Assembly (NCBI RefSeq): GCF_007164725.1
Contig: NZ_AP019697.1
Location: 788,001 to 852,000 of the forward strand
DNA length: 64,000 bases
Reading direction: 5' to 3'
Origin: Dialister hominis
GTDB lineage: Bacteria; Bacillota; Negativicutes; Veillonellales; Dialisteraceae
Part shown: piece after piece, positions 46,432-62,336 of the stretch
Layout: each line of letters starts with the position of its first letter
Numbering within the stretch: position 1 is the first letter of the stretch
Notes under the pieces: model-generated
What the model was told of the DNA's origin: nothing
Databases searched by the model: none
Seen by the model: the letters and a program-made list of their open reading frames with translations, nothing else
Translations under genes and position numbers: made by a program

Positions 46432-47893
46432 GGTTCTTCACGCTTTCTTGTGGGATAAAAATAATAACATATAAAATTGGCATTGAAAAAGAGCATTATC
46501 TACTCCAAAATGTAAGTTGCCTAAAACTACGCACGGAGGTCGAATAATGCTCTTTTATTACCATAATGAAATCACTTTTAATTGTCAATATTATCGCACA
46601 GAAAATATCACTAACCATCCAAATCCTCATTGCCATACCCGAGTTACCAGTCTACGGACTGCCAGAGATTTTTCCTGTCCGCACTGTCACTCCCGTATGT
46701 ATAGTTATGGGGCTTTTTCTGTACTCATCAAGGATTTTCCAGATCTTCCTAAGCAAAAGAAGTATATAGAGTTCTCGGGGCACAGATTCCGCTGCACATC
46801 CTGCGGGGAGACCATAACGGAAGATATCCCCTGCCAATGCCCTTTCACACGCGTTACTTGGGATATGGCCTTGTGGATTATCCATCTGCTTAAGTGTCAT
46901 ACATCCATTTCTGCCATTTCGGCCATGCTCTCTGTACATTGGAGTACCATACAGAAAATACAAAAGCATATCATGGATAAGGCGTTGGCTGCCTTTGAAA
47001 CCTGCCTGAAGAAAAGTAACTATCGCCCACGGTATTTGGCCGTAGATGAGTTCGCTATCCATAAGGGCCATCGCTATGCCACCTGCGTTATGGATTTGGA
47101 AACGGGATTCATCTTGTGGGCCGGCCTGGGTCGCTCCATGGCAGATTTTGAGCACTTCTTTAAGAGCATTGGCCTTTCGCTTCTTTCCAGGCTAAAAGCG
47201 GTGGCCATGGATATGAACGCATCCTTTAACAGGCTGTTCCAGAAATATTGTCCGAAGGTCCCCATCGTTTATGACCGGTACCATATGCAGGCACAGTTTG
47301 GGCGTGATGTTATGGGAGCCGTGCGCCTGGAGGAAGCACAAAAGCATAGGCAGGAAGCAGAAGCATTAAAGGAATATACGAAAGAAACTAATAATCCAGA
47401 GCTCCAGAAGATGGCCAGGGAAAAGAGCCATGAAGAAAGGAAGCTTTATACCGAATTAAAGAAATCCCGATGGATACTGTTAAAGAAGGACGACCACCTG
47501 AATGAAAGGCAGAAAACTCATCTGTTGGATATCCTGAGCGAGCATAGGGATTTGGCGATTTGTTATGCCATGAAGCAGGAGATGACTCGTCTGTTCACAT
47601 TGACTGACTATGAAGAAGCTCTCGCCGGATGGACAAAATGGATTCAGGCTGGACTGGAGAGCGGGATTCCTGCCCTGGTAAAGTTTGCCCGGCAAAAGCA
47701 GAAGCGAATCAAGGGACTGGCTGCTCATGCCCTGTATCCTATCAATACGGGGAAGCTTGAAGGATTCAATAATAAGATCAAGGTACTAAAAAGAATCGGA
47801 TATGGGTACCGAAACATGGATTATTTCTTTACCCTTATCCGATTCCATTCTTTACCTAAAAATTATTCATCCCCCCAATTTCCGTGAAGAGCC
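46432..47893 (+). mobile_element. ISL3-family insertion sequence, complete
   Basis: A 1462-bp element bounded by the 8-bp direct repeat AATATTTT (46424-46431 and 47894-47901). Ends are imperfect inverted repeats: GGTTCTTCACGCTTTCTTGT on the left and, inward from the right, GGCTCTTCACGGAAATTGGG. It carries one transposase gene whose stop codon lies within the right repeat. The insertion is in non-coding DNA between fba and yajQ. Confidence 0.93.
46547..47887 (+). CDS. ISL3-family transposase
   Basis: A 446-residue protein: N-terminal zinc-finger region (CHTRVTSLRTARDFSCPHCHSRMYSYG; FRCTSCGETI), helix-turn-helix, then the DDE core with YLAVDEFAIHKGHRYATCV and VAMDMNASFNRLFQKYCPKVPIVYDRYHM, ending GKLEGFNNKIKVLKRIGYGYRN with the final Glu. 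Full length with no frameshift, so possibly active. ATG 46547 follows GGAGG. A 13-bp inverted repeat (46487-46499 with 46544-46556) would pair over the start codon in read-through transcripts. Confidence 0.94.
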   Translation: MLFYYHNEITFNCQYYRTENITNHPNPHCHTRVTSLRTARDFSCPHCHSRMYSYGAFSVLIKDFPDLPKQKKYIEFSGHRFRCTSCGETITEDIPCQCPFTRVTWDMALWIIHLLKCHTSISAISAMLSVHWSTIQKIQKHIMDKALAAFETCLKKSNYRPRYLAVDEFAIHKGHRYATCVMDLETGFILWAGLGRSMADFEHFFKSIGLSLLSRLKAVAMDMNASFNRLFQKYCPKVPIVYDRYHMQAQFGRDVMGAVRLEEAQKHRQEAEALKEYTKETNNPELQKMAREKSHEERKLYTELKKSRWILLKKDDHLNERQKTHLLDILSEHRDLAICYAMKQEMTRLFTLTDYEEALAGWTKWIQAGLESGIPALVKFARQKQKRIKGLAAHALYPINTGKLEGFNNKIKVLKRIGYGYRNMDYFFTLIRFHSLPKNYSSPQFP

Positions 47894-48089
47894 AATATTT
47901 TAGCATTTTGATAGAAAAAAGAAGTTAATTTATATAAATGATAGCAAATATTAAAAGTTGCCAATGCATGAGAAAAGATTTAGAATTTAATTAAAAGTTC
48001 TATTTTCCTTTGAATCCTATAGAAAAAATAAAGCATGTCAAAATTAATTGGAATTTAGCTAAAAATATAAATCCCGATGACGTTGAATA

Positions 48090-48098
48090 TGGTAAAAT
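48090..48098 (+). promoter_or_regulatory. Extended -10 promoter of yajQ and the cobalamin genes
   Basis: TGGTAAAAT, 82 nt before the yajQ ATG. The 47902-48089 stretch after the ISL3 element is AT-rich with no recognisable gene or cobalamin riboswitch. Confidence 0.45.
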
Positions 48099-48179
48099 GA
48101 AAAGGTATGGTTTTCCTTTATTATAAGGTGAACTTCACAAGCGTAACAAACTTTCACAATATATAGACAGGAGGTTGCT

Positions 48180-48671
48180 ATGGCAAAGGATTATTCATTC
48201 GATGTTGTTTGCCGCACAGATATGCAGGAAGTGGCTAATGCGGTCAATCAGGCGTCCAAGGAAATAGGTACGAGGTACGATTTCAAGGGGAGCAAAAGCT
48301 CTGTCACTTTAGATGACGGTCATATTACTTTAATTGGTGATGATGATTTCAAGCTGAGATTGGTCAGGGAAATCATTAACGGCAAGCTTGTCAAGAGAGG
48401 CATTTCTCTGAAAAATTTAAAAGAGCAGAAGAAGGAAGCTGCTGCCGGGGGAACTGTACGTCAGGTACTTGAACTCCAAAATGGAATCTCATCAGAGCTT
48501 GCAAAAGAAATTGTCAAAGAGGTCAAAGGTTCCAAGATTAAAGTCGCTGCTAAAATTAACGGTGATGAAGTTCGTGTAACAGGGAAAGACAAAGATGATC
48601 TCCAGGCATGCATTGCCTTTTTGAAGAAGCTGGATCTTCCGGCTGATTTGCAGTTTGTAAACTATAGATAA
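48180..48671 (+). CDS. yajQ: YajQ-family nucleotide-binding protein
   Basis: A 163-residue protein with two ferredoxin-like repeats: MAKDYSFDVVCRTDMQEVANAVNQASKEIGTRYDFKGSKSSV and a second half around AAKINGDEVRVTGKDKDDLQACIAFLKK. YajQ proteins bind nucleotides, and cyclic di-GMP in some species. AGGAGG lies before ATG 48180. It ends 14 nt before cbiD and is probably co-transcribed with it, which is not a usual pairing. Confidence 0.93.
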   Translation: MAKDYSFDVVCRTDMQEVANAVNQASKEIGTRYDFKGSKSSVTLDDGHITLIGDDDFKLRLVREIINGKLVKRGISLKNLKEQKKEAAAGGTVRQVLELQNGISSELAKEIVKEVKGSKIKVAAKINGDEVRVTGKDKDDLQACIAFLKKLDLPADLQFVNYR

Positions 48672-48685
48672 TCGAGGGAGTTATA

Positions 48686-49801
48686 ATGACGCCAGAGGAA
48701 ATGATAGGTAGAACGTTAAGGGAAGGCCATACGACAGGAGCTACGGCTGCTGGCGCAATGAAGGCCGCGATTCTTGCCATCAGAGGAGAATTTCCGAAGC
48801 AAGTATCAGTATTATCCCCGCAAAGGAAAGAAATTGTTATTCCGGTCGAATCTGCATCTGCAGAGGGTACTGTCGGCACGGCTACCTGCATTAAGGATGC
48901 CGGAGATGATTTGGACTGCACGAATGGCACTCCCATTGTTGTCACTGTCGAACTGACTGACACCAAGGGTATGGAACTGAAAGCAGGAAAGGGAGTCGGT
49001 ATCGTAACCAGACCCGGACTGCAGGTCAAGATAGGAAAGCCTGCAATCAATCCGGGCCCGCAGATCATGCTCCGCTATGTTTTTGAAGAACTCATCGGAA
49101 AAGACAAGGGATGCATCGTTACGATATCTATTCCTGAAGGGGAAGAGCTGGCGAAACAGACTTTAAACCCGGCAATCGGGATTAAAGGCGGCATCTCTGT
49201 ACTGGGGACGACAGGAATTGTAAAACCGATGAGTGAGGATGCATATAAGAGATCTTTGGCACCGCAGGTGCCGGTTGTCTGGGCAGACGGATACAGGACG
49301 GCTGTGCTCTGCCCCGGACGCATCGGTGAAAACGCTGCTAAAATAATGGGAATTCCGGAAGGAGCCATTATTGAAACCAGCAATTTCATTGGGTTTATGA
49401 TGGAGCAGTGCATTGCACGCGGCTTTGAAAAGATGATCCTTGTGGGTCATATGGGAAAATTGGTCAAGGTCGCATCAGGCAGTTTCCATACGTATAATCG
49501 AAACAGCGATGGCAGAATGGAGACAATGGCGGCATATGCAGCTGCAAATGGGGCATCAAAAGAAGTCGTACGTGAAATTTTAGATTGCAATACGACAGAT
49601 GGTGCAGCTATTATTATTCACAGAGAACATCTTGATATGATTTATTCACAGATGGCAGAAAGAGCCCAGGTAAGATCCGAACGCTATATTTTTGGAAAAT
49701 CAAGAGTGGGTGTCATATTTGCCGGGATGGATGGAACCATTCAGGCAGTCAGCTCACATGCTAAGGATATATTGGAGGAAGAGGGATGGAACATACATTA
49801 A
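48686..49801 (+). CDS. cbiD: Cobalt-precorrin-5B C1-methyltransferase
   Basis: A 371-residue protein: LREGHTTGATAAGAMKAAILAI at the N terminus, VGIVTRPGLQVKIGKPAINPGP, and GHMGKLVKVASGSFHTYNRNSDGRMETMAAYAA in the C-terminal half, all typical of CbiD. It methylates C1 in the oxygen-independent B12 pathway and marks this as the anaerobic route. It is the first of eight contiguous cbi genes and overlaps cbiE by 16 nt. Confidence 0.96.
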   Translation: MTPEEMIGRTLREGHTTGATAAGAMKAAILAIRGEFPKQVSVLSPQRKEIVIPVESASAEGTVGTATCIKDAGDDLDCTNGTPIVVTVELTDTKGMELKAGKGVGIVTRPGLQVKIGKPAINPGPQIMLRYVFEELIGKDKGCIVTISIPEGEELAKQTLNPAIGIKGGISVLGTTGIVKPMSEDAYKRSLAPQVPVVWADGYRTAVLCPGRIGENAAKIMGIPEGAIIETSNFIGFMMEQCIARGFEKMILVGHMGKLVKVASGSFHTYNRNSDGRMETMAAYAAANGASKEVVREILDCNTTDGAAIIIHREHLDMIYSQMAERAQVRSERYIFGKSRVGVIFAGMDGTIQAVSSHAKDILEEEGWNIH

Positions 49802-50409
49802 TTGTTGCAGGCATAGGGCCGGGAGGAAAGGATTTTATTCTTCCCAAAGCTCTGACTGCAATAAAACGTGCTCATTACCTCGTCGGAGGTCACAGGGCGC
49901 TTTCTGATTATGCATCTGAAAATCAAGAGACTTATGCCGTTACGGGTAAACTCGCACCTCTTGCACAGTGGATTAAAGAGGCTCTCAGTAAAGATGATGT
50001 AGTTGTCATGGTCAGTGGTGATCCGGGATACTATAGTCTTCTTCCCTGGCTGAAGAAACAGTTTCCGGAGTGTCCTTTGACTGTTATTCCCGGAATATCT
50101 TCTGTGCAGGCCGCATACTGCGCTTTGGCACAGCCATGGCAGGGATCTGAATGGCTGAGTTTTCACGGCCGTGTTCCGGATGATGACAAGCTTATGTTTT
50201 CTGAAGGCAGGAAATTATCCTTTTTAACGGACGGTGTACATAATCCTGCTTTTATAGCGGAATATCTTATGGGCAAGGGCTGGCCCGGCGAGACACCGGC
50301 TTCTGCCTGCGAACATCTATCTTACGAGAATCAGCACATTGTTACGTCAACTTTGTCTGAAATTGCAAAGCTGGATGGATTTGAAGAATCGGTAATGGTG
50401 GTGGGATAA
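49786..50409 (+). CDS. cbiE: Cobalt-precorrin-7 C5-methyltransferase
   Basis: A 207-residue tetrapyrrole methylase: LIVAGIGPGGKDFILPKALTAIKRA with the glycine loop, VGGHRALSDYA, VVMVSGDPGYYSLLPWLK as the SAM-binding motif, and VIPGISSVQAAYCALAQPW. It corresponds to the N-terminal half of CobL; cbiT downstream supplies the other half. ATG 49786 follows GGAGGAAGAGG. Its TAA shares one base with the cbiT ATG. Confidence 0.94.
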   Translation: MEHTLIVAGIGPGGKDFILPKALTAIKRAHYLVGGHRALSDYASENQETYAVTGKLAPLAQWIKEALSKDDVVVMVSGDPGYYSLLPWLKKQFPECPLTVIPGISSVQAAYCALAQPWQGSEWLSFHGRVPDDDKLMFSEGRKLSFLTDGVHNPAFIAEYLMGKGWPGETPASACEHLSYENQHIVTSTLSEIAKLDGFEESVMVVG

Positions 50410-50981
50410 TGGCAGCATTCGGAATTGAAGATTCAGAATTTATACGTGGGAAGGTGCCCATGACAAAAGCTGAAATCAGGGCTATGGTCATGGTTAAAGC
50501 TGCAATCCAGGATAACGATATCGTTGCTGATATTGGTGCAGGAACCGGCTCATTGACCATAGAAGCAGCTTTATGTGCAAAGTCCGGCAAGGTCTTTGCG
50601 ATTGAAAAGAATCCTGAGGGCATTCAGTTAATTAAGCAGAATGCAGAAAAGTTTGGCTACCAAAATATCATTGCAATCGAAGGCAGCGCACCTGATGCAA
50701 TGGATGGACTTCCACCTCTTGATGTAATTATCATAGGCGGCACCAGCGGCAATATGCATAAAATATTGGATAATGCGGAAAATCTCTTGAAAAAAGGCGG
50801 AAGAATCGTACTGACCGCAGTCACAGCTGAGACTACGGGTGAAGTTGTCAGAGAATTCAAAGACCGCCCTTTCAAGTTTGAGGGATTCCAGATGCAGATC
50901 AATCGTCTCCGCAAGCTGGGGAGATATCATCTTTTCGATCCGCAGAGTCCAGTTTTTATATTTACAGCAACTAAAATTTGA
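50409..50981 (+). CDS. cbiT: Cobalt-precorrin-6B C15-methyltransferase (decarboxylating)
   Basis: A 190-residue class I methyltransferase. IRGKVPMTKAEIRAMVMVKAAIQDNDIVADIGAGTGSLTIEAAL holds the SAM-binding loop (DIGAGTG), and DVIIIGGTSGNMHKIL follows. It methylates C15 and removes the C12 acetate carboxyl, acting with CbiE. It starts on the cbiE stop codon and is followed by cbiF after 9 nt. Confidence 0.95.
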   Translation: MAAFGIEDSEFIRGKVPMTKAEIRAMVMVKAAIQDNDIVADIGAGTGSLTIEAALCAKSGKVFAIEKNPEGIQLIKQNAEKFGYQNIIAIEGSAPDAMDGLPPLDVIIIGGTSGNMHKILDNAENLLKKGGRIVLTAVTAETTGEVVREFKDRPFKFEGFQMQINRLRKLGRYHLFDPQSPVFIFTATKI

Positions 50982-50990
50982 GGAGGATTT

Positions 50991-51767
50991 ATGTTAGGGA
51001 AACTTTACTTTATCGGCGCCGGTCCGGGAGACCCGGAATTAATCACGGTCAAGGGAAAAAGAATCATTTCTGAAGCAGATGTAATCATCTATGCTGGTTC
51101 TCTGGTTAATCCGGAAGTATTGAACTGCAGGAAAAATGGTGCTGTTGTTTATAACAGTGCAGAAATGAATCTGGACGAAGTGTTGAAAGTTGAATTGGAA
51201 GCTTTAAATAAGGGGCTTGAAGTCGCTCGTGTTCATACAGGCGATCCGGCTATCTATGGTGCGATTCAGGAACAGATGGATGGTCTCCGTGCTGCCGGCA
51301 TCAACGAAGAACAGTTTGAAGTCATTCCTGGAGTCAGCTCTTTCCTTGCAACTGCAGCTGCTTTGAAGCAGGAATACACACTGCCTTCCATATCGCAGAC
51401 TGTTATTATTACCCGTATGGAAGGAAGAACACCAGTGCCTCCAAAGGAAAAATTAGCTTCTTTGGCTGCGCATCAGGCAACCATGTGCATTTTCCTTTCT
51501 GTTCAGGCGATCGATAAAGTAATGAGCACTCTTAAAGAAGGCGGTTATCCGGGAGATACACCTGTGGCTATCGTATCCAGAGCCAGCTGGCCTGACCAGA
51601 GAATTTTCCGCGGTACGATTGATACGATTGCTGATATCCTTCATAAAGCAGGGGTTGTCAGACAGGCCATGATCGTCGTTGGCAAAGTTCTTGACACAGA
51701 CTATGAACTTTCTAAGTTGTATGACAGCAAATTTACCACGATGTTCCGTAAAGGGACTGAAGACTAA
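50991..51767 (+). CDS. cbiF: Cobalt-precorrin-4 C11-methyltransferase
   Basis: A 258-residue tetrapyrrole methylase: LYFIGAGPGDPELITVKGKRII, VIIYAGSLVNPEVL, VARVHTGDPAIYGAIQEQMD, VIPGVSSFLATAAALKQEYTLPSISQTVIITRMEGRTPVP. These are the CbiF/CobM signatures. It has AGGAGG ahead of ATG 50991. Its stop shares a base with the cbiG ATG. Confidence 0.96.
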   Translation: MLGKLYFIGAGPGDPELITVKGKRIISEADVIIYAGSLVNPEVLNCRKNGAVVYNSAEMNLDEVLKVELEALNKGLEVARVHTGDPAIYGAIQEQMDGLRAAGINEEQFEVIPGVSSFLATAAALKQEYTLPSISQTVIITRMEGRTPVPPKEKLASLAAHQATMCIFLSVQAIDKVMSTLKEGGYPGDTPVAIVSRASWPDQRIFRGTIDTIADILHKAGVVRQAMIVVGKVLDTDYELSKLYDSKFTTMFRKGTED

Positions 51768-52837
51768 TGAAATATGCCATTGTTTCTGTTTCGAAAACCG
51801 GTGCCCGGTTAGGCGCAAAAGTCAAAGCGGGCATTTCGGGTGATGGAACCCTGTATGAAAGAGCGGGATCGGAAAGTGGTCAGGTAGCCGTTTATTTCAA
51901 GAGAACGATGGATCTTATTACCGAAATATTCGCGCTTTATGACGGGATCATTTTCATCATGGCATCTGGAATTGCAGTGAGAGCCATAGCGTCTCATGTA
52001 GTCAGCAAGGCCAGCGACCCTGCGGTTCTGGTTATGGATGAGTGCGGAATTCACTGTATCTCGCTATTGTCAGGACATTTAGGCGGAGCCAATGCGTGGG
52101 CAAGAGAAGTAGCTGCAGCAACTGGTGCCGAAGCGGTCATAACTACAGCAACGGATGTTCATGACCATAAGGCTCCGGATGATATTTCCCGCGAATTGAT
52201 GATGAGAGTCGAGCCATTGCAGGCTTTGAAGCCGGTAAACAGTTTAATTGCTGAAGGCAAAGTATTTGCCTGGTTCCTCGATTCAGAAATACCGGATGCA
52301 GATATCATAAGGAACAAACTAGATAAGCTCGGTATAGAGTGTTTAGATATAAATCTTCTCTCAAAAGCAGATTATGCAGGCTGTGCAGTTATATCCGAGA
52401 AAAGTTTCAATATATCCAAGCCTCACGTTTATTTGCGCCCTAAAAACCTGTATATCGGGATAGGATGTAAACGCGGCACTCCCGAGAAGAATATATATGA
52501 TGCTTTTCAGGATTGCCTGAAGAAAATAGGGGCTTGTGAATATCAGGTAGTTTCTCTTGCCAGTGTAGATTTGAAGGCGGATGAAAAGGGACTGCTTGAT
52601 TTTGCCAGGCACATGAATTTGCCTATACATTTTTATAGGCCTGAAGAATTAAAAATAATCACGGATGAGTATCAGTTGGAAAAGTCATCATTCGTAGAAA
52701 AAACAATAGGAGTTGGAAACGTATGTCAATCAGCAGCACTAATGGAATCAGCAAAGGGCCGAACAATTCTTCCGAAAACAAAGTATGTGGGGGTAACAGT
52801 GGCAGCAGCCATGGGGTTATCTACGTTATCGGAATAG
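51767..52837 (+). CDS. cbiG: Cobalt-precorrin 5A hydrolase
   Basis: A 356-residue protein that opens the delta-lactone ring of cobalt-precorrin-5A, releasing acetaldehyde. The N-terminal region has IIFIMASGIAVRAIASHVVSKASDPAVLVMDECG and ISLLSGHLGGANAWAREVA; the C-terminal domain has LYIGIGCKRGTPEKNIYDAF and ends VPKTKYVGV-like (ILPKTKYVGVTVAAAMG). The C-terminal end is conserved, so the frame to 52837 is real, yet the cbiH start codon lies 115 nt before this stop. Confidence 0.94.
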   Translation: MKYAIVSVSKTGARLGAKVKAGISGDGTLYERAGSESGQVAVYFKRTMDLITEIFALYDGIIFIMASGIAVRAIASHVVSKASDPAVLVMDECGIHCISLLSGHLGGANAWAREVAAATGAEAVITTATDVHDHKAPDDISRELMMRVEPLQALKPVNSLIAEGKVFAWFLDSEIPDADIIRNKLDKLGIECLDINLLSKADYAGCAVISEKSFNISKPHVYLRPKNLYIGIGCKRGTPEKNIYDAFQDCLKKIGACEYQVVSLASVDLKADEKGLLDFARHMNLPIHFYRPEELKIITDEYQLEKSSFVEKTIGVGNVCQSAALMESAKGRTILPKTKYVGVTVAAAMGLSTLSE

Positions 52838-53547
52838 GACCAGGATATAAGGAAGAAATGACACCAAGAGCTGTCGACGCTCTTGAACAGTCTGATATCA
52901 TTGTCGGATACAATACTTATATTGCTCTCATAAAAGATCTTATCGGTGATAAGGAAGTAGTCGGCAATGGCATGCGCCAGGAAGTGGACCGCTGCCAGAA
53001 GGCTGTCGATCTGGCCGTCGAAGGCAATAAGGTCGCAGTTGTTTCTTCCGGGGATCCGGGTGTTTATGGCATGGCCGGACTGGTTCTGGAACTCATCCAG
53101 AAAGTTGATGCACAGAAGAGACCGGAATGCATTGTCATTCCTGGCCTTACCGCTGCGAATACCTCTGCAGCTGCTTTGGGAGCACCTCTCATGCATGACT
53201 ATGCAGTTATCAGCCTTTCCGATCTTATGACTCCGTGGAATCAGATCAAAAAGAGAGCTGATTTTGCAGCTCAGGGTGATTTTGTTATTGCCATTTACAA
53301 TCCTAAGAGCCGCGGCCGTGCTACATACCTGAATGAGATCAGAGATATTGTCATGAAATATCGCAAGCCTGAAACTCCGGTAGGCATCGTCCGCAAGGCC
53401 GGACGTCCGGGAATGAACTGGACGATCACGGATCTTGAAAAACTTCCTGATGAAGATGTCGACATGCAGTCCACGGTTATCATCGGAAACAGCAATACCT
53501 ATGTAGCTGATGGCAAAATGATTACTCCAAGGGGGTACAAGCTTTGA
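52723..53547 (+). CDS. cbiH: Cobalt-precorrin-3B C17-methyltransferase
   Basis: A 274-residue tetrapyrrole methylase. The conserved domain begins only at residue 32 (VIYVIGIGPGYKEEMTPRA), followed by VVSSGDPGVYGMAGLVLE and VIPGLTAANTSAAALGAPLMHDYAVISLSDLMTPW. The first 31 residues are Ser/Asn/Gly-rich and are encoded in a second frame over the 3' end of cbiG. No ATG, GTG or TTG lies between 52723 and the conserved domain, and TAGGAGT is nine bases before ATG 52723, so the 115-nt overlap appears genuine. Confidence 0.92.
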   Translation: MSISSTNGISKGPNNSSENKVCGGNSGSSHGVIYVIGIGPGYKEEMTPRAVDALEQSDIIVGYNTYIALIKDLIGDKEVVGNGMRQEVDRCQKAVDLAVEGNKVAVVSSGDPGVYGMAGLVLELIQKVDAQKRPECIVIPGLTAANTSAAALGAPLMHDYAVISLSDLMTPWNQIKKRADFAAQGDFVIAIYNPKSRGRATYLNEIRDIVMKYRKPETPVGIVRKAGRPGMNWTITDLEKLPDEDVDMQSTVIIGNSNTYVADGKMITPRGYKL

Positions 53548-54362
53548 TTTGGATTATTTCCGGAACTCAGGACGGACGAGAACTTGGCGCCGAACTTGCT
53601 GATCGGGAAAATTTGAAGAACCCGGATGAACGAAAGGGGATCCTTATGACGGTCGTAAGCCAGTATGGCAAAGTTTTGGCCGAACATACCGGAATTGATA
53701 TAGAGGTCGGGCGTTTCACGAAGCCTGATATGGTCCGTATTATTCATGATAAGGATATCGAATTGATTATAGACGCCAGCCATCCTTATGCCGCAATTGT
53801 CTCTGAGACGGCTTTCAGTGCATGCAGGGAAACCGGTATCCAGTATATCCGTTACGAAAGACCTGAAATTCCTCTGCCGGATTACGATAAACTTTACGTA
53901 GTAAAAGACGAAAATGAGGCGGCCGAACTGGCAGGACGTTTGGGAAACAGCATCCTCCTTACGACGGGATCCAAGACACTCAGCACATTTGTCAATTCCA
54001 AAGCCCTCGAAGGCAAAGAAATATGGGCGAGAGTACTTCCCACTTCCGGTGTAGTCAAAATGTGTGAAGAACTCGGCATGAAAGCTAAGAATATACTGGC
54101 AGTGCAGGGACCGTTCTCCTATGAGATGAACATGGCAATGATTCATGATTACAAAGCTGATGTTCTGATTACAAAGAACAGCGGATTAGTGGGAGGCAGC
54201 GATAAAAAGCTTGAGGCTGCTATGAGCGCAGGCATTGCTGTTATAGTTATCGAAAAACCGAAGTCTGTACTTACCGGAGTGCCTGTTTTTAACAATACGC
54301 AGGATGTATTGAGTTATATGGAGGATCACTATGGACTTTATAAAGAACCCAAGAGCAATTGA
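53544..54362 (+). CDS. cbiJ: Cobalt-precorrin-6A reductase
   Basis: A 272-residue protein: MIWIISGTQDGRELGAELAD, TVVSQYGKVLAEH, IDIEVGRFTKPDMVRIIHDKDIELIIDASHPYA, YIRYERPEIPLP and ILAVQGPFSYEMNMAMIHDYKADVLITKNSG (CbiJ/CobK signatures). It reduces the ring with NADH or NADPH. The start is TTG 53544, overlapping the cbiH stop, with AAGGGGG upstream. It overlaps cbiC by 32 nt. Confidence 0.93.
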   Translation: MIWIISGTQDGRELGAELADRENLKNPDERKGILMTVVSQYGKVLAEHTGIDIEVGRFTKPDMVRIIHDKDIELIIDASHPYAAIVSETAFSACRETGIQYIRYERPEIPLPDYDKLYVVKDENEAAELAGRLGNSILLTTGSKTLSTFVNSKALEGKEIWARVLPTSGVVKMCEELGMKAKNILAVQGPFSYEMNMAMIHDYKADVLITKNSGLVGGSDKKLEAAMSAGIAVIVIEKPKSVLTGVPVFNNTQDVLSYMEDHYGLYKEPKSN

Positions 54363-54993
54363 AGAAAAGAGCATGGATTTGATTGATCCATTTATTTCTG
54401 ATATTGATTTAACTGATGAAGAAGTTACCGTTTATTCACGGATGATTCATGCGTCCGGAGATGTAGACTACGGTCATCTTATTCGTACGAGCGAGAATGC
54501 TGTAGAAGAGGGCATCAAAGCATTAGCTAAAGGCTGCAATATCTATTGCGATGTTAATATGGTTAAAGCCGGCATCAACAAGAATGCACTGAAAGTTCTG
54601 GGAAGTGAAGTATTCTGCCGTGTTTCCGATCCGGAAATTGCTAAAATCGCAAAAGAAAAGAATATTGCCCGCTCCATGGCCGCAATGAATTCTTTCGGAA
54701 CTGATCTGAATGGCGCTATTATTGCTGTAGGCAATGCTCCGACGGCCCTTTATGAAGCTATCCGCATGACACTGGAAGATGGAATTAAGCCGGCGCTGAT
54801 TATCGGCATCCCGGTTGGCTTTGTAGGAGCTGCTGACTCCAAGGAACAGCTGATCAGGAAAGCTCCGTGCCCTTATATCACAGTAAGAGGCACGAAAGGC
54901 GGAAGTTCCATCGTGGCATCCTGCGTCAATGCACTTATGTACAATCTGGTAAAACGCGATAACATGCTTTATATAGAAGGCAAAAAGAAATAA
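54331..54993 (+). CDS. cbiC: Cobalt-precorrin-8 methylmutase
   Basis: A 220-residue protein: AIEEKSMDLIDPFI, VYSRMIHASGDVDYGHLI (with the catalytic His), IYCDVNMVKAGINK, IIAVGNAPTALYEAIRM and ALIIGIPVGFVGAADSKEQL. It shifts the C11 methyl to C12 to give cobyrinate. Last gene of the cbi run, closed by a terminator. Ribosome site GGAGG at 54320 inside cbiJ. Confidence 0.96.
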   Translation: MDFIKNPRAIEEKSMDLIDPFISDIDLTDEEVTVYSRMIHASGDVDYGHLIRTSENAVEEGIKALAKGCNIYCDVNMVKAGINKNALKVLGSEVFCRVSDPEIAKIAKEKNIARSMAAMNSFGTDLNGAIIAVGNAPTALYEAIRMTLEDGIKPALIIGIPVGFVGAADSKEQLIRKAPCPYITVRGTKGGSSIVASCVNALMYNLVKRDNMLYIEGKKK

Positions 54994-55000
54994 CTCTTGA

Positions 55001-55037
55001 GAAGCACTGATGCGCATTGGAGATCAGTGCTTCTTTC
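55001..55037 (+). terminator. Rho-independent terminator after cbiC
   Basis: GAAGCACTGAT (55001-55011) pairs perfectly with ATCAGTGCTTC (55023-55033), followed by TTTCT. The following 95 nt to the permease show no clear promoter or riboswitch. Confidence 0.85.
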
Positions 55038-55132
55038 TATAGCTGTTTCTGGTGCTCTGAATCATGTGGTTCAATAATGATTTGCCTAACTTTTGTCTCA
55101 AAGGCCGCTGGCTTTACTAGGAGGAAAATTAT

Positions 55133-56140
55133 TTGAACGAGATAGAAACGGATGAGACGATAAAAAGCAAAAGTCTCAAAATAATTATTATTCTTTTTTT
55201 CACCGGGTTTACTATATTTGCGATGGTAGCAAGCCTTACCCTGGGCTCCGTAGATATTTCTTTCTCAACTATCGTGCATACACTCTTGGGAAATGTCCAG
55301 ACTACTGATGAAATGGTAATCTGGAATATCCGGTTCCCCAGAAATATCGTAGGAGCCCTTGTCGGGGCCAACCTGGCTGTCTCAGGGGCTATACTTCAGG
55401 CAGTCATGAAGAATCCCCTTGCAGATCCTGGAATCGTCGGTGTTTCAAGCGGTGCCGGATTGGCAGGCGTTATCATGCTCATATTTATGCCGGAAGCGTC
55501 TATCCTTCTGACTCCCGTCGCTTTTGTGGGGGCTATGCTTTCTGCGGCAGCTGTTTATGCGCTGGCCTGGAAAAATGGGATACGGCCGACACGAATCATA
55601 CTGGCAGGGGTTGCAGTCAGCGCCTTTCTGGGAAGCGGAATATCTGCCCTGCTGGTGTTCTATTCTGATAAAGTGCAGGGGGCTCTCCTTTGGATGGTCG
55701 GTGGTTTATCTGCAAGAAGCTGGCCGCAGGTAGAGACGCTTTTCCCATACACGATACTGGGGCTTGTTCTTGCCCTGGCCGGATGTAAAGCGCTTACAAT
55801 CCTGAGCCTTGGTGATGAAACGGCAAGAGGGCTTGGTGTGCCTGTCGAGCGTGTACGATTTTCCATGACCGCAGTGGCAGCTCTTTTAGCGGCAGGGGCC
55901 GTCAGCGTTGCTGGATTGATCGGGTTTGTAGGACTCGTGGTCCCGCATATTGTCAGATTGATTATCGGAACGGATTACAAGTATGTCATTCCCGGATCAG
56001 CTATTTTGGGAGCGGGCGTCCTTGTATTCTGCGATACTCTGGGCCGTGTTGCTTTTTCTCCAATAGAAATACCTGCCGGCATTATTATGGCATTTTTAGG
56101 AGCTCCGTTTTTCCTGTACCTGCTTAGGAGGAGTTCATGA
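55133..56140 (+). CDS. FecCD/BtuC-type ABC transporter permease
   Basis: A 335-residue permease with about nine to ten membrane helices: IWNIRFPRNIVGALVGANLAVSGAILQAVMKNPLADPGIVGVSSGAGL, LAGVAVSAFLGSGISALLVF and VAGLIGFVGLVVPHIVRLIIGTDYKYVIPGSAILGA. The family imports cobalamin, heme or iron-siderophores; location after cbi genes favours a corrinoid or cobinamide. It begins with TTG 55133 after AGGAGG. It overlaps the ATPase gene by 4 nt. Confidence 0.92.
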   Translation: MNEIETDETIKSKSLKIIIILFFTGFTIFAMVASLTLGSVDISFSTIVHTLLGNVQTTDEMVIWNIRFPRNIVGALVGANLAVSGAILQAVMKNPLADPGIVGVSSGAGLAGVIMLIFMPEASILLTPVAFVGAMLSAAAVYALAWKNGIRPTRIILAGVAVSAFLGSGISALLVFYSDKVQGALLWMVGGLSARSWPQVETLFPYTILGLVLALAGCKALTILSLGDETARGLGVPVERVRFSMTAVAALLAAGAVSVAGLIGFVGLVVPHIVRLIIGTDYKYVIPGSAILGAGVLVFCDTLGRVAFSPIEIPAGIIMAFLGAPFFLYLLRRSS

Positions 56141-56925
56141 TGAGTGATGATATTGCTATTAAAATATCCGATGTACATGTTTCATTTGGAAATCATCATG
56201 TGCTTAAAGGAGCGAGCGGAGAAATCAAAAAGGGGAGCATTGTTACCTTTTTGGGGAGAAACGGCTGCGGGAAATCAACACTGCTGAAAGTCGTAACCGG
56301 AAATTTAAAGCCGGAAAACGGATCCATTGAAATTGAAGGGCGTACATTGTCCAGCTTTTCCGCCTCCGAGATGGCACAGAAAGTTGCTTTCCTGCCTCAG
56401 GTTCATGAAATCCCACGGGATATGACGACTGAGGAATTGGTAGCATGCGGCAGGTATCCATACCAGCACTGGTGGACAGGTGTTTCCGAGCACGATCGGG
56501 AAATCATTGAACTTGCTATGGAAAAAACAAATACGATACATTTGAAAAATCGTATTGCGGCCAATCTTTCCGGCGGTGAAAGACAGAGAGTCTGGATTGC
56601 CATGGCTCTGGCACAGGAACCTGAAATTTTGATTCTGGATGAACCTACCACGTATCTGGATATCTGCCATCAGCTTGAAGTGCTGGAGCTGATAGAAAAA
56701 CTGAATCAGGATGAGAAATTGACCGTAGTGATGGTTCTTCATGATATTAATCAGGCGATACGTTATTCCCAGGATATCCTCGTGCTTGAAGATGGTATTA
56801 TCAAATATCATGGGAATCCTGTTGAAATCATGACACATGAGACAATCGGTGAAATATTCAAGGTGGATGCGGACATAGAAATAAGACAGGGCAGGCCCAG
56901 TGTTATAGTCAACGGGCTGCTTTAA
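56137..56925 (+). CDS. BtuD/FecE-type ABC transporter ATP-binding protein
   Basis: A 262-residue ABC ATPase: Walker A LGRNGCGKST, Q-loop in VAFLPQVHEIPRDMTTEELVACGRYPYQHW, signature LSGGERQRVWIAMALAQEP, Walker B ILILDEPTTYLDICHQ and H-loop VMVLHDINQAIRYS. All typical of the cobalamin/iron-chelate class. It follows the permease directly; the cognate binding protein is probably the convergent lipoprotein at 58791, now separated by an IS copy. Confidence 0.93.
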   Translation: MMSDDIAIKISDVHVSFGNHHVLKGASGEIKKGSIVTFLGRNGCGKSTLLKVVTGNLKPENGSIEIEGRTLSSFSASEMAQKVAFLPQVHEIPRDMTTEELVACGRYPYQHWWTGVSEHDREIIELAMEKTNTIHLKNRIAANLSGGERQRVWIAMALAQEPEILILDEPTTYLDICHQLEVLELIEKLNQDEKLTVVMVLHDINQAIRYSQDILVLEDGIIKYHGNPVEIMTHETIGEIFKVDADIEIRQGRPSVIVNGLL

Positions 56926-56946
56926 ATCAATCTGCCTAAATGAAAA

Positions 56947-58760
56947 GGGGCTGCAACAAAATGGTTAATCATTTTGTTGCAGCCTCTTTTTTGCGTCTTT
57001 ATTTCATCATTTTTAGCTCTGCTGTAAGCCTTTTACGTAAAAATGCGCGTAAGCCCCCTTACCCCCCATAAGACTTTTAATTATATTGTCTTAGGCGGCA
57101 ATCCTTATACGCATTATTTTTGTGATGTATTTCCTTAAATTATAGCCAAGTGCTACCAGGTATAACTCGGCTTTTACAGAATCTATCCTTTTTCTGACGA
57201 TTCTTTTGTACCATCTGTCATGTTTCATGATTCCAAAAGTTCCTTCAGCCTGGATTGACCGGTTCATTCTTAGCAGGGCTCCATGGATGCTTTCCAGATT
57301 ATCCTGAACCTCCTGGTACATGTTATTCCGTTCTCTGCTCAATGAGATTCTTTTGTTCTTCGGGGTCTTTTTACATTGCTCTGCCAGCGGGCATCCTTGG
57401 CAGTCTTCGCATTCAAATACTTCCTCCTGCCTGCCGTATAAGTTCCCTCTGACCAGATGTCTATAGATAAATTTGAAAGCCCTGTCATTTGGACAACGGA
57501 TGGTTCCATTCTCATCAACTCTAGAGTTTATTGGCCGAAACGGATTGGTATGGTATTTCTTGTCTTTCGTTTCTTTCTTGTACATGGGGAATTTCATATA
57601 CTTTTCCATACCGTGCTGCTCGCAATAGATGTAATTGTTGAAAGATCCATATCCTGCATCTGCCACAGGATACTTAGGATAAGCCCCATAGACTTCGTGG
57701 AATTCCTCCATCAGCGGTACGAAGCAATCCATATCTGAACGATACTGGTTAACATCAATTACGGCAATAAATTCATCGGCAACACCTATTTGGACATTGT
57801 ATGCAGGCAGAAGCTGATCATTTCCCATGTAGTCCGACTTGATTCGCATGAATGTTGCATCCGTATCGGTCTTCGAGTAACTGTTTCTGGAAGTACCGCA
57901 TATCTGTATCTTCTCAACATATTCTTCAAGTTTTGATGTATATGCCTTAAGCTGCTCATACTTGCGTTGATGATCGGACTTGCGATGCCCGCTTCCATGA
58001 ACAAAGGCCGTCTCATCAATCTGCCAGATTTCTTTTAATTTATCCAATACCAGACGCAGATAGTCCGGAGCGTATTCTGTATTGATGTTTACACTCATAT
58101 GGTCATACTTAAGATCATCATTGAGTAACTCAAAAAGGCTGGTAATCTTGGCAAAAAAGCTTGTAGCGGGATTTTTCAGCGGATTTCTTCCATACCCAGC
58201 TGTATTTATTTGCGTTCGCTTCAAACTTGGAACCGTCAATATATATATGCTGCAAATCCACGTTGAGTTTGCCGCAGAGTTCTTTCGTAATTGAATAAAA
58301 GATATCCTTGAGAGAATACTTAAGAAAGCCCTTCACGAAATGACAGAATGTCCGATAGGATGGGGCTTCATAATTCATCAGGTACATATATCTGATGTTA
58401 ACCCTGCAATTATCTTCAAGTTTTCTAAAAGAGCAATATCCTTCTTCTGCGAAACCATAGATAATCGTTTTCAGCATGTTGACGGGATTATACCTGGGTC
58501 TGCCAGCGCCACGCGTCGGTATGTAACGAAGGTACTTTTTAAGATCGATTTCCTCCATAAATCTGTCATACATTAAAACAGGATCATCGACATTGAGAAT
58601 CTCAGAAGGAAACATTGGCAAAATGCCTTGTTCTGCGGTAAAATGATTGCTAGTGTTGTTATTTTTCATTGCAAAAAAATTATAACACGAAAGGCTCTGC
58701 CCCGGACCAAATGATCCGGGGCAGAGCCCTTTTTGTTGGGATGAATTTTGTCACATCCCC
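56947..58760 (-). mobile_element. IS1182-family insertion sequence, copy 2 (defective)
   Basis: 1814 bp, near-identical to 43401-45211 with three single-base insertions in homopolymers and a few substitutions. The left end reads GGGGCTGCAACAAAAT, making the left hairpin (56949-56984) perfect. The right-end hairpin is 58693-58728. No direct repeat and no palindrome is visible in the flanks. It lies in the 3' gap between the transporter ATPase and the convergent binding-protein gene, so it interrupts no gene and supplies terminators to both. Confidence 0.9.
57091..58669 (-). pseudogene. IS1182-family transposase, frameshifted
   Basis: The coding sequence equals the intact copy except for one extra A in an A-run near 58151-58156 (T-run on the coding strand). 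The N-terminal frame (from ATG 58669) therefore stops after 179 residues with KLFCQDYQPF instead of continuing KLFAKITSLF. The remainder stays open in another frame down to 57091. A couple of further substitutions exist (for example KGID to KRID). Without ribosomal slippage it would give no full transposase. Confidence 0.88.
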
Positions 58761-58790
58761 TTTCTTTAATATGAAATCGGATGCAGCCAT

Positions 58791-59723
58791 TTAGCCGTTA
58801 TAGGCCAGATCATACAGCTTCTCCATGGCTTCTGGTGTTCTTACACCAGGATTTAGCAGAAAGAGATCCGAGGGGAGGAAGAAGACCTTATGATTTTCTA
58901 CAGCTTTCAAATGATTCCATGCAGGATTTGAACGCATGTCTTCATCCATCTTCTTGTTGATTTCATCAGCATTTCCCATCGTCACAACAAAGATGATATC
59001 CGGGTCGTCTGCAGTCAGCTGTTCAAGAGAATAAGGAACGGTTTTCCCAGTCAGATTAATATTCTTATGGGAAACGACGACATTGTTCATTTTCAGCAAT
59101 TCTACCATAGATGCACAAATCGATTCAGGAGTTTCGGCAGTAATTGATTTGCCGGTAGCTCTTAATACGGCGACTCTGGCTGGTGTCTTTGCAGATGCCT
59201 TTTTTTCTATATCAGACATCTTGTTATTATAATCAGCTACAATCTTTTTTGCGGCATCTTCCTTGCCATAAACCTGTCCCATAAATTCCAGCAAAGGAAC
59301 GTTATCCTTGATTCCATCATAATTAATCAGGATATAGGGAATCTTGTTGCTTTGAAGCAGCGATTCAAGTTTTGCATCATGACTTTTCTCGCCGATAACA
59401 AAGTCCGGCTTCATTCCCACCAAGGTTTCCATATTGATATGCTGGATAGTGCCGATGATTGGGAGAGATTCTGCCTCAGGAGGAATCGGGCTTGTGGTTA
59501 CAGGTCTTGCAACAGAAGTGCCGCCGACACTATAAGCCATGTTCAGCAGGGGAGCGGTCAGCGTGACGACTCTCTTCGGCTGGGCTTTCATTGTTACCGT
59601 ATGCTCCTCATATTTGTATTGAATGGAACCCTTCTCAGAGGATGTACCTGAAGTTGCACATCCTGCAAGAGCGAAACAGAGTGCAGCCGATACAAGAAGC
59701 GTGCAAATCTTTTTTGGAGACAT
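58791..59723 (-). CDS. Cobalamin/iron-chelate ABC transporter binding lipoprotein (BtuF-like)
   Basis: A 310-residue class III binding protein. Signal peptide with lipobox ALAGC (acylated C22), then YEEHTVTMKAQPKRVVTLTAPLLNMAYSVGG and INMETLVGMKPDFVIGEKSHDAKLESLL, characteristic of periplasmic binding proteins for B12, heme or siderophores. Likely partner of the permease and ATPase at 55.1-56.9 kb, though on the other strand. GGGGAAAA precedes the ATG. cbiK lies upstream on the same strand. Confidence 0.9.
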   Translation of the reverse strand: MSPKKICTLLVSAALCFALAGCATSGTSSEKGSIQYKYEEHTVTMKAQPKRVVTLTAPLLNMAYSVGGTSVARPVTTSPIPPEAESLPIIGTIQHINMETLVGMKPDFVIGEKSHDAKLESLLQSNKIPYILINYDGIKDNVPLLEFMGQVYGKEDAAKKIVADYNNKMSDIEKKASAKTPARVAVLRATGKSITAETPESICASMVELLKMNNVVVSHKNINLTGKTVPYSLEQLTADDPDIIFVVTMGNADEINKKMDEDMRSNPAWNHLKAVENHKVFFLPSDLFLLNPGVRTPEAMEKLYDLAYNG

Positions 59724-59803
59724 TTTTCCCCTTTCTACGAATATAGTTCGTCTGCAGAAGCAGAATAAATATCAAGCCTGATGGATTTTATTGGAGGATT
59801 GTT

Positions 59804-59845
59804 AAAAGAACCTCCTCGGCATAGAATGACGGAGAGGTTCTTTTT
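59804..59845 (-). terminator. Terminator after cbiK (minus strand)
   Basis: AAAAGAACCTC pairs with GAGGTTCTTTT around an interior with a second short stem. On the minus strand it follows the cbiK stop within 25 nt, so cbiK and the lipoprotein gene may be separate units or partly coupled by read-through. Confidence 0.75.
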
Positions 59846-59863
59846 ATCATATCACAAATGGGA

Positions 59864-60853
59864 TTATTTCTGCAGTGCGGACAGCGCTTCTTCAGCTCTG
59901 TTCACATAGATCTGACGGACATTCTTGTTTTCACCAAGTCCATGGATGTAAGTCTTTACAGTAAATCCGTCTTTTTCAAGGATGCTCTTATGAGAATCCG
60001 GATCACTGCCAGCCATATCATTATTTGCATGATCACCAGCGACCATCATGATTGGCATCAGGGTAACTGTCGTATAACCGCCAGCTTTCAGCTTCGGGAT
60101 GACATCTTCAAGATTCGGACGGCCTTCTACGGAGTATACGAACACATTATTCATACCGAGCTGCTGCAGACGATCCTGAATAACAGAATAGTAAGCATTG
60201 CCCGGATGCGGGGTGCCATGAGCCATAATCAAGGTAGCTTCATGCGGTCCCATTTTCGGAATTTGGCTCTTGAGAGCATTTAAGAATTCTACGATCTGAT
60301 CTGGTTCACCTTCGGTGCCCTGGAAATACATAAGAGGCATTGCAAGAGAAAGTTTCTTGAAGTTATTAGCCTGCATCTTGGTAATGATAGAGTCATAGCT
60401 GTATTCCATGCCAGGAATAACATCGAGAGAAACGACGGCAACACGTGTATATCCGTCTGCTTTCAGTTTAGCAAACGCTTCCTCAGGCGTTAACTTCTGA
60501 ATTCCTTCCTTTGCCTTGACTCGATCGATGATGATATGGGAGGTATAAGCTTCATATACAGGTACCCCGGGATTGGCTTCCTGAATGGCTTTTTCTACTG
60601 CATCAATGGTTTTGGCACGAGTGTCTTTAAATGTTGTGCCAAATGTCATTACGAGAATGGCATCTTTGTTTGGCGCATTCTTCATTGCGGGGTTTTCAGA
60701 TGTCCAAACACCTACGGTAGATGCTTCGCGAAGAGCTGGTGTAACATCCTTGACTTCCGGATTCAATTCATAGGCACTTGTCGAAAAACTGGCACCCAAT
60801 GCACAAAGTGCAGCCATAGAGGCAACCACCATACGTCTAACTCCTTTTTTCAT
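59864..60853 (-). CDS. cbiK: Sirohydrochlorin cobaltochelatase CbiK, exported form
   Basis: A 329-residue class II chelatase. DAILVMTFGTTFKDTRAKTIDAVEKAI begins the catalytic domain; metal-site histidines are H212 (IMAHGTPHPGN) and H275 (VAGDHANNDMAG), with Glu in VEGRPNLEDVI. The first 27 residues (MKKGVRRMVVASMAALCALG then AxA at STSA) form a classic cleavable signal peptide. An exported CbiK is known in Desulfovibrio (CbiKP), where its role is debated between cobalt/iron-tetrapyrrole handling and transport. AAAGGAGTGA precedes the ATG. Confidence 0.93.
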   Translation of the reverse strand: MKKGVRRMVVASMAALCALGASFSTSAYELNPEVKDVTPALREASTVGVWTSENPAMKNAPNKDAILVMTFGTTFKDTRAKTIDAVEKAIQEANPGVPVYEAYTSHIIIDRVKAKEGIQKLTPEEAFAKLKADGYTRVAVVSLDVIPGMEYSYDSIITKMQANNFKKLSLAMPLMYFQGTEGEPDQIVEFLNALKSQIPKMGPHEATLIMAHGTPHPGNAYYSVIQDRLQQLGMNNVFVYSVEGRPNLEDVIPKLKAGGYTTVTLMPIMMVAGDHANNDMAGSDPDSHKSILEKDGFTVKTYIHGLGENKNVRQIYVNRAEEALSALQK

Positions 60854-60969
60854 TAGAAAATCACTCCTTTTGCTAAAATTCTGATAGAAATAGAATTATA
60901 AGCAACTCGAGAGAGAATCTGAGCATTTCCCAAGTACTTGATCACAGTCTTGAGTTGTTTTATATCATA

Positions 60970-60998
60970 ACTTTAATACAGGATTATTCTAAAGTCAA
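60970..60998 (-). promoter_or_regulatory. Candidate cbiK promoter
   Basis: On the minus strand: TTGACT (60998-60993), a 17-nt spacer and TAAAGT (60975-60970). The cbiK-mreB gap (60854-61301, 448 nt) is otherwise AT-rich. At 61161-61213 the minus strand has fragments resembling cobalamin-riboswitch boxes, but in the wrong order and upstream of this promoter. Confidence 0.35.
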
Positions 60999-61259
60999 CA
61001 AAAAACACAGAATTAATTAATATATCAATAGAAATAAATTAGAACAATCGGTACGTTTGAAAACATTTATAAATTAAGGTTTAGAATATAAAGCTGCATA
61101 CCAGGAAATAAAAGGAAAATGAAAAATAATACGCTTCTTCTTCAGGATGATTAAAAGCAACAGGAAACCATCCGGAATTTCACCTGGAAGAGCAAATAGC
61201 AAAGCAGGTCTTCTTTACAACAGATAAGCTGGTTTTTGATGATTGTTATACCACAAACA

Positions 61260-61268
61260 TGATATAAT
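61260..61268 (+). promoter_or_regulatory. Extended -10 promoter of the mre genes
   Basis: TGATATAAT, identical to the element before uvrB, 33 nt before mreB. The -35 is weak. Confidence 0.55.
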
Positions 61269-61301
61269 AAATTGTATTACTATAGAAAGGTATAAAAATG
61301 T

Positions 61302-62336
61302 ATGAAAGCATTTTCCGCATTAACGAATAAATTAGGAATCGATCTGGGCTCCTCTCAAGTCCGTATTTTTCGTGATGACAGAGTGGTATTAGAAGAATCC
61401 AGCGTTGCCGTAGTGGATAACATCAACGGCAGAGTTCTGGGATTTGGCACAGACGCATTGATCCGATACCATGAAGAGCCAGAAAATCATTACTTGGCAT
61501 GGCCTGTAAAAAACGGTTCTATTGCTGATTATAACATTGCAAAATCAATGCTGCGCTATTTTATCAATAAGGCGCTTCATCATTCGGTCAGCCGTCCATC
61601 CGTAATGATAGCGGTTCCCTGTGAGACAAGTTCGGTAGCAAGGCATGCATTAGTGGACGCCTTGATGCATGCAGGCGCGAGGCAGGTTTATTTAATCGCC
61701 TCTCCGGCTGCAGCAGCTATCGGGGCTGATTTCAATCTTGAGAATTCCTCGACGATTTTATCCATGGTCATAGGCCGGGATGTTACAAATGTCGGATTAT
61801 ATTGCTGCGGCGGCATCGTCTCTCAGGTGGGAGATGCCTTTGGCGGACATAATATTGATGTTGGAATCTGTCAGTATCTTCAGGATAAATATAATGTCCT
61901 GATAGGAATAGAGCAGGCTGAAAAATTAAAGAGTGAAGTGATTTCTTTAACCCGCGGAGGGAATCAGGATACTTTTACCATACGAGGCAGAAGGATCAGT
62001 GATGGGGTAGAAGTTGTCATCGAACTGTCCCTCGAAGAGCTGAGCCCTGTTATGAAAAAAATCATGAAGCCTGTCTTATCGTCTGTTAAAAGGGCTATAG
62101 CAGAAGCAACACCGGATATGGCAGGCGATCTGCTGAAGAATGGCCTGCTCCTTTCTGGCGGCAGCGCACTATTGTCCGGATTAAAGGACTGGCTTTCTTT
62201 TGAATTGGGGATTCCTGTGCTCGTTCCGGATAATCCCGCAGATATTATTTCAGAAGGCTGCCTGAAAGCTTTTGACAAGCAGAAACATCTTTCTCTCTTG
62301 ATAGAGAATGGTGAAAAATATTATGGAGGCGCTTAA
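61302..62336 (+). CDS. mreB: Divergent MreB, actin-like shape-determining protein
   Basis: A 344-residue actin-fold protein followed by mreC and mreD. The fold is clear (KLGIDLGSSQVRIF, VMIAVPCETSSVARHALVDALMHAGARQVYLI, QYLQDKYNVLIG, GLLLSGGSALLSGLKDWL). Nucleotide motifs are altered: the usual IEEPMAAAIG reads IASPAAAAIG (131-140), losing the catalytic Glu, and DIGGGTT reads IGRDVTN (157-163). It may bind but not hydrolyse ATP. ATG 61302 is 4 nt after an out-of-frame ATG at 61298, which is better spaced from GAAAGG but yields only ten codons. Confidence 0.9.
   Translation: MKAFSALTNKLGIDLGSSQVRIFRDDRVVLEESSVAVVDNINGRVLGFGTDALIRYHEEPENHYLAWPVKNGSIADYNIAKSMLRYFINKALHHSVSRPSVMIAVPCETSSVARHALVDALMHAGARQVYLIASPAAAAIGADFNLENSSTILSMVIGRDVTNVGLYCCGGIVSQVGDAFGGHNIDVGICQYLQDKYNVLIGIEQAEKLKSEVISLTRGGNQDTFTIRGRRISDGVEVVIELSLEELSPVMKKIMKPVLSSVKRAIAEATPDMAGDLLKNGLLLSGGSALLSGLKDWLSFELGIPVLVPDNPADIISEGCLKAFDKQKHLSLLIENGEKYYGGA

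Follow-up and report, generated by a model that had tools for sequence, protein, structure and literature searches.

A periplasmic CbiK is already known as a protein: it has been described in Desulfovibrio vulgaris (PMC4063343), and its solved structures (CbiKP; PDB 2xvx, 2xvz) dispose of the premise, made in the preliminary description of the present locus, that CbiK acts always in the cytoplasm. An association with an importer has been reported at the level of gene control in Desulfovibrio, where a single B12 element reportedly controls both cbiK-cbiL and btuCDF (PMC545781), and at the level of gene order in Sulfurospirillum multivorans, where cbiK-btuC-btuD-btuF lies in a corrinoid operon and is reported to be induced together (PMC7755780). 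For Salmonella CbiK (PDB 1qgo), two histidines are reported to be important for cobalt insertion (PMC7689651). The CbiK fold also occurs in an exported protein of P. gingivalis, FetB (PDB 9b86). FetB, which we take to be the same protein as IhtB, is described under the latter name as a heme/iron-uptake lipoprotein. In the Iht system, a CbiK-like lipoprotein is reported to be paired with a receptor of the TonB type and with an ABC importer (PMC10913741).

The protein considered here is the CbiK encoded in a 64,000-nucleotide stretch of Dialister hominis DNA (the window; the term refers to the whole stretch that was analysed). It shares with CbiKP the fold and, by prediction, export, and differs from it in having a conserved extension of ~35 residues, in lacking His96, and in that cbiL lies ~215 kb from cbiK (btuF being adjacent to cbiK, and btuCD near). 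It is not filed as CbiKP because His96 is absent; it may work like CbiKP. D. vulgaris presumably also has a cytoplasmic CbiKC, and there is no second CbiK in the window genome. Compared with IhtB/FetB, window CbiK has the fold in common, but lacks a lipobox and is linked to cbi genes. The S. multivorans B12 unit is alike in placing cbiK next to btuCDF, and belongs to another phylum with a different gene order. Salmonella CbiK is alike in fold and in Glu89, His145 and His207; unlike window CbiK, its chain starts at the domain, with neither signal peptide nor extension, and its position 83 is His where window CbiK has Asp144. In the literature search (titles and the beginnings of abstracts among the matches listed), no paper dealt with an exported CbiK that is the only chelatase or with one from Negativicutes, nor was any paper on a 'cobaltophore' found. 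Within that scope, three things are without a description: a B12 maker whose only CbiK/CbiX is exported, the spread of this state in Negativicutes, and its tie to BtuFCD there.

The chelatase gene and its neighbors

The features of the locus are the following (positions of the window):

48686-54993, + strand: cbiD, cbiE, cbiT, cbiF, cbiG, cbiH, cbiJ and cbiC, upstream of btuC-btuD (open reading frames, family matches)
55133-56140, + strand: btuC-type FecCD permease (PF01032, 322.8 bits)
56137-56925, + strand: btuD-type ATPase (PF00005)
57091-58669, - strand: IS1182-like transposase in two frames, between btuD and btuF (open reading frames, domain match)
58791-59723, - strand: BtuF/IsdE-like substrate-binding lipoprotein (PF01497, 122.2 bits; lipoprotein Cys22 invariant in 9 aligned proteins)
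59804-59846, either strand: terminator-like hairpin, flanked by A/T tails, in the gap from cbiK to btuF (found by eye; absent from the pattern scan)
59864-60853, - strand: cbiK, a CbiK-family class II chelatase of 329 residues with an N-terminal signal peptide (open reading frame, PF06180 at 265.7 bits, fold matches)
59867-60667, - strand: CbiK catalytic domain, residues 63-329 (PF06180, alignment to Salmonella CbiK)
60668-60772, - strand: conserved N-terminal extension, residues 28-62 (alignments; AlphaFold model, with a helix at 39-45 and a strand at 50-53)
60773-60853, - strand: predicted Sec signal peptide, residues 1-27 (sequence, a crude rule, conservation among relatives)
60864-60869, - strand: Shine-Dalgarno-like AAGGAG, ten bases before the cbiK ATG

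The PF06180 match covers residues 65-324 and is far above its cut-off of 26.2 bits. Alignment places E150, H212 and H275 of window CbiK at E89, H145 and H207 of the Salmonella enzyme, so that the catalytic Glu/His/His set is kept; these three residues are unchanged in 146/146 signal-peptide CbiK copies of the wider survey. The AlphaFold model (pLDDT 88.0) has the bilobal CbiK fold and superimposes on Salmonella CbiK (1qgo) with Z 34.9 and 1.4 A over 257 residues, on the periplasmic D. vulgaris CbiK with Z 35.0 and 1.3 A over 259 residues (35% identity), and on P. gingivalis FetB with Z 31.4. The NCBIfam equivalog for sirohydrochlorin cobaltochelatase (NF047852) scores 204 bits against a cut-off of 400, which is why the protein is filed as a member of the PF06180 family and not as the equivalog. 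The ~35-residue extension behind the signal peptide appears, in the model, to be partly folded onto the CbiK domain; by alignment, it is retained even in the signal-less CbiK copies of two relatives (G009 and G010).

Residues 1-27 are built like a Sec signal peptide, with a positive n-region, a hydrophobic core and the sequence S-T-S-A|Y at the predicted cleavage site. There is no lipobox at Cys16/Cys17 (Leu precedes Cys), and the sequence is accordingly not classed as a lipoprotein signal. Signal calls were made by a crude rule of our own, which treats signal peptides and membrane anchors alike. The rule passes window CbiK and 69/72 BtuF/BtuB-type proteins, and it also passes 60/387 cytosolic proteins and 363/5000 shuffles of window CbiK, so that one sequence taken by itself does not settle the matter. 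More weight falls on conservation: a signal-passing CbiK behind an extension is found at 78/80 named loci (with a permissive choice of start), and alignments show the cleavage-site region and the extension to be conserved in most relatives. It is on sequence and conservation together that window CbiK is predicted to carry an export signal of the periplasmic CbiKP type. The chelatase with an export signal that had been claimed for this locus is therefore borne out, as a PF06180 protein with a predicted Sec signal conserved in relatives. So are its claimed neighbors, an adjacent BtuF-like lipoprotein and a nearby FecCD permease and ATPase, with the detail that btuC and btuD lie on the other strand, where they end the cbi operon.

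The gene for the BtuF-like lipoprotein follows cbiK by 140 bases on the same strand, and cbiD-E-T-F-G-H-J-C-btuC-btuD (48686-56925) converges on it. (Within this operon cbiG, cbiH, cbiJ and cbiC were assigned by family match, cbiE, cbiF and cbiH by a TP-methylase match, and cbiD and cbiT by eye.) The BtuFCD domain set (PF01497, FecCD, ABC ATPase) is complete in the window; the name designates the importer type and does not imply the substrate. Scores of the individual proteins stay below the NCBIfam cut-offs for the B12 transporter: 270.4 against 461 for BtuC and 126.5 against 281 for BtuD, with the lipoprotein scoring 132.9 as IsdE (cut-off 298.65) and 48.8 as BtuF (cut-off 234). No cobalamin riboswitch was found near cbi and cbiK, at the Rfam gathering threshold over the whole window or in an E-value search of 47500-62000. 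The only Rfam gathering match of the window is a ribosomal protein L20 leader at 42079-42188 (+). A strong inverted repeat 3' of btuD (56945-56988) came out of the pattern scan as terminator-like on both strands. Besides the split IS1182-like transposase, an intact-looking copy of 525 residues is at 43544-45121 (-). A second transposase of 456 residues, ISL3-like by eye, lies at 46517-47887 (+), and pieces of it are also found near cbiL (L045).

B12 genes of the genome and of its relatives

The window genome is a single contig of 2,407,548 bases (2.41 Mb) and 99.97% complete. The search for a second chelatase that the preliminary description had named as the key question was run on all of it: PF06180 has one match, which is the window cbiK, and CbiX (PF01903) has none. 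CbiM, of the CbiMNQO cobalt importer, is likewise without a match over cut-off in this genome. The run exbB-exbD-tonB-cbiL-cbiA-btuR is at C1:1.06 Mb (L045:7589-12131; exbB and exbD by eye), the TonB system thus adjoining cbiL, far from cbiK. A sirC-like gene opens the run sirC-like-hemA-hemC-cobA/hemD-hemB-hemL at C1:0.77 Mb (hemA, hemB, hemC and hemL by eye). The sole detected CbiK/CbiX of a cell that has corrin-ring genes of the anaerobic B12 pathway, cbiL included, is thus one that bears a predicted export signal.

This configuration is shared by relatives. Within the order, cbiL is over cut-off in 53/61 genomes, and 19 of these 53 have exactly one CbiK gene, of the signal-peptide type, and no CbiX outside CbiK (all 45 rows of CbiX matches in the order fall inside CbiK genes, as compared by eye). 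The 19 comprise 5 genomes of the window's family, 13 of family f2 and 1 of f3. (In G014, counted among the 13, cbiK is split in two frames, L055:8707-9720.) Two genomes of genus g3 in the window's family depart from the pattern, G009 with one CbiK that lacks a signal and G010 with one that has it and one that does not; G011 (75% complete) has none. G030-G032 have two CbiK genes each and 28 f4 genomes have three or more by count; where sequences in these two groups were inspected, one copy has the signal peptide and the others do not. The cobalt importer searched for was CbiM, which is over cut-off in 10 and missing from 43 of the 53 cbiL-bearing genomes. By family, it occurs in 0/8 (the window's own), 8/13 (f2), 0/4 (f3, with two weak matches) and 2/28 (f4); its presence in 8 of 13 cbiL-bearing f2 genomes means that not all of these organisms would need a cobalt carrier.

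In the class as a whole (380 genomes) CbiK is found in 346 genomes (340 over cut-off) and cbiL in 330 (counted at E 1e-40; 329 are over its cut-off). The two occur together in 314 genomes, CbiK without cbiL in 25, cbiL without CbiK in 16, and neither in 25, for an odds ratio of 19.6 that is not corrected for kinship. (For this table 7 weak CbiK matches were removed, against 6 that score below the family cut-off, so that one genome may differ.) The proposition that exported CbiK is always accompanied by CbiL is rejected by the 25 CbiK genomes without cbiL over threshold, some of which are incomplete. Forty genomes outside the order, a hand-picked subset of those with a single CbiK and cbiL, were also inspected. 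In 36 of the 40 CbiK has a signal peptide, and in 35 it is also the only detected CbiK/CbiX, G371 alone of the 36 having a separate CbiX; a clear signal is lacking in G078, G080, G087 and G378.

Linkage to the importer was assessed on 153 CbiK genes, after 50 of the 203 distinct genes had been dropped for flanks under 2 kb. (Four loci, L095, L112, L117 and L125, were reset by hand to the signal class, having a signal peptide in frame.) A signal peptide is present in 53 of the 54 CbiK genes that are in an operon run with btuF/btuC, and in 63 of the 99 that are not. Among CbiK genes in a run with cbiL, 15/16 have the signal when btuF/C is also in the run and 0/24 when it is not; the 24 belong for the most part to two related paralogues of the Veillonella type, so that independent cases are few. 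Phylogenetically independent pairs give 2 to 5 concordant for signal and btuF/C linkage against 0 to 1 discordant, changes on independent branches too few for significance.

The arrangement cbiC-btuC-btuD > < btuF < cbiK is kept in the inspected genomes of the window's family, f3 and f4, sometimes with other open reading frames between, or with a contig break. In four f2 genomes the order is btuF-btuC-btuD-cbiK-cbiD, running on beyond cbiD, and one of them (G020) has a BtuB-like gene preceding btuF. A module cbiK(signal)-cbiL-btuF-btuC-btuD recurs in at least 6 other families, its CbiK coming from more than one lineage; it resembles the set of cbiK-cbiL and btuCDF reported for Desulfovibrio (PMC545781). 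In G371 it is a second and separate unit beside a cbi cluster that has its own cbiL and the CbiX match. The importer was searched for genome-wide by way of BtuC, and the CbiK-linked BtuC type is present in 18 of the 19 genomes with a single signal-peptide CbiK (the exception, G022, is 82% complete).

One relative has lost both elements. In G010 the arrangement is cbiC-btuC-btuD > < btuF < cbiK(signal). In G009, of the same genus and 94% complete, the same flanking genes are present, btuC, btuD and btuF are gone, and CbiK lies 60 bases after cbiC with an N-terminus that still aligns, but in which the hydrophobic core is broken, leaving no signal. No BtuC-like gene was found in G009 at E 1e-20, and cbiL is still present. 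In the tree, the CbiK of G009 is the sister of the second copy of G010, which also has no signal (support 99). This is most simply explained if one copy lost its signal once and G009 later lost its exported copy together with the importer. Coupling of the two would predict such a joint loss, but the case amounts to a single event and may also reflect gene replacement. (Two further CbiK genomes without BtuC, G022 and G024, were left out as incomplete assemblies.)

Where cobalt may be inserted

The domain with its catalytic residues, the predicted signal, the lack of another detected CbiK/CbiX, the gene linkage and, in one relative, the linked loss are read directly from the sequence; from them we infer location, substrate, direction of transport and the exit of sirohydrochlorin. 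The best explanation, advanced tentatively, is that cobalt is loaded onto sirohydrochlorin in the periplasm and that Co-sirohydrochlorin is imported by BtuFCD for CbiL. CobA-HemD and the SirC-like dehydrogenase would make sirohydrochlorin in the cytoplasm, from where it would pass to the periplasm (we know of no sirohydrochlorin exporter). Exported CbiK would there load it with Co(II), the BtuF-BtuC-BtuD importer encoded next door would carry Co-sirohydrochlorin back, and CbiL would methylate the returned compound. Sirohydrochlorin could then be thought of as a self-made cobalt carrier, a consequence of periplasmic loading followed by re-import. As part of this explanation, and no more firmly held, the window protein would be an exported class II chelatase with intact catalytic residues that serves as the organism's cobalt-insertion enzyme. 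The earlier suggestion that it acts on periplasmic tetrapyrroles and supplies the transporter would be the best-supported reading of window CbiK. The extension to many Negativicutes, that they make B12 by a two-compartment pathway in which an intermediate doubles as cobalt carrier by way of a dedicated BtuFCD, is the more doubtful proposal. Several observations run counter to periplasmic loading and re-import: 63 signal-peptide CbiK genes lie outside btuF/C runs; G016 has a signal-less CbiK and keeps btuBFCD, with cbiL missing; G379 has the module with a CbiK that lacks an in-frame signal (there is a hydrophobic stretch in a neighboring frame); and G080 and G087 are single-CbiK genomes without the signal.

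If periplasmic loading is correct, a large class of bacteria of the gut and mouth carries out one step of a central vitamin pathway outside the cytoplasm, and the BtuFCD-type importers encoded next to cbi genes transport an intermediate, not finished B12. Annotation of these genes as B12 salvage may then mislead models of vitamin exchange. Moreover, the cobalt supply of B12 makers that are without a CbiM-type importer would become testable by single gene deletions.

That exported CbiK instead has a periplasmic role with heme, iron or other tetrapyrroles (as a hemophore or dechelatase, like IhtB/FetB), a SirC/Met8-type protein inserting cobalt in the cytoplasm, is thought rather unlikely. FetB is a close structural relative and the Iht system a parallel for the joining of a CbiK-like lipoprotein to a receptor and importer; the BtuF-like protein of the window scores nearer to IsdE than to BtuF; and four genomes (G083-G086) have an exported-looking CbiK and no cbiL over threshold (G083-G085 have cbiD, and two of these three also have cbiF). 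CysG has been described as a cobaltochelatase as well (PMC7018833). The SirC-like protein of the window genome scores 72.3 bits to the monofunctional SirC 3dfz against 44.4 bits to CysG, but keeps Asp107 and Pro136 at the positions of CysG D104 and P133, the marks of the chelatase-competent form, so that cytoplasmic cobalt insertion without CbiK may occur. What weighs against a heme or iron role is the co-occurrence of CbiK with cbiL across the class (subject to kinship), the position of CbiK in or beside cbi operons in many relatives, and the invariance of its catalytic residues. Heme binding in the manner of IsdE or of D. vulgaris CbiK was considered separately and is rejected, since the ligands are not conserved. 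His96 and His103, the heme-binding histidines of the D. vulgaris protein, correspond in window CbiK to Ser152 and to a position within an insertion, respectively. Met78 and His229, the heme ligands of IsdE, are replaced by Gln/Ala/Ser and by Met in 9 aligned BtuF-like proteins compared by eye.

A dual location, in which unexported or retained CbiK inserts cobalt in the cytoplasm, or the signal only anchors the protein at the inner membrane, is improbable. A cytoplasmic version is evidently enough in G009, and directly ahead of the domain there is an in-frame Met57 (MKNAPNK), with Met at this place in 12/20 aligned proteins, window CbiK included. Yet no Shine-Dalgarno sequence precedes Met57 in the window, or the matching Met of G004, G005 and G007, and most relatives have kept the cleavage-site region and the extension. 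Least probable is a division of labor in which BtuFCD salvages finished corrinoids and exported CbiK has a separate task in salvage or cobalt capture: BtuB-like receptor genes (before btuF in G020, with similar genes in others) and BtuC-like genes in genomes without CbiK or cbiL (e.g., G002) speak for it, but it leaves unexplained the missing cytoplasmic chelatase, the cbiK-cbiL-btuFCD module and the joint loss in G009.

Cobamide production is reported for Veillonella parvula and Sporomusa ovata (PMC8123684). V. parvula also has signal-less CbiK copies, and its case therefore does not show that exported CbiK suffices. Veillonella-type genomes have, in addition, a third, signal-less CbiK-like paralogue (L070:14406-15284, L072:10675-11568 and 11 similar), in which the catalytic Glu and the first His are lost (to Cys/Ser and Asn) in 13/13 copies; 10 of the 11 with enough flanking sequence are in a run with signal-less CbiK and cbiL.
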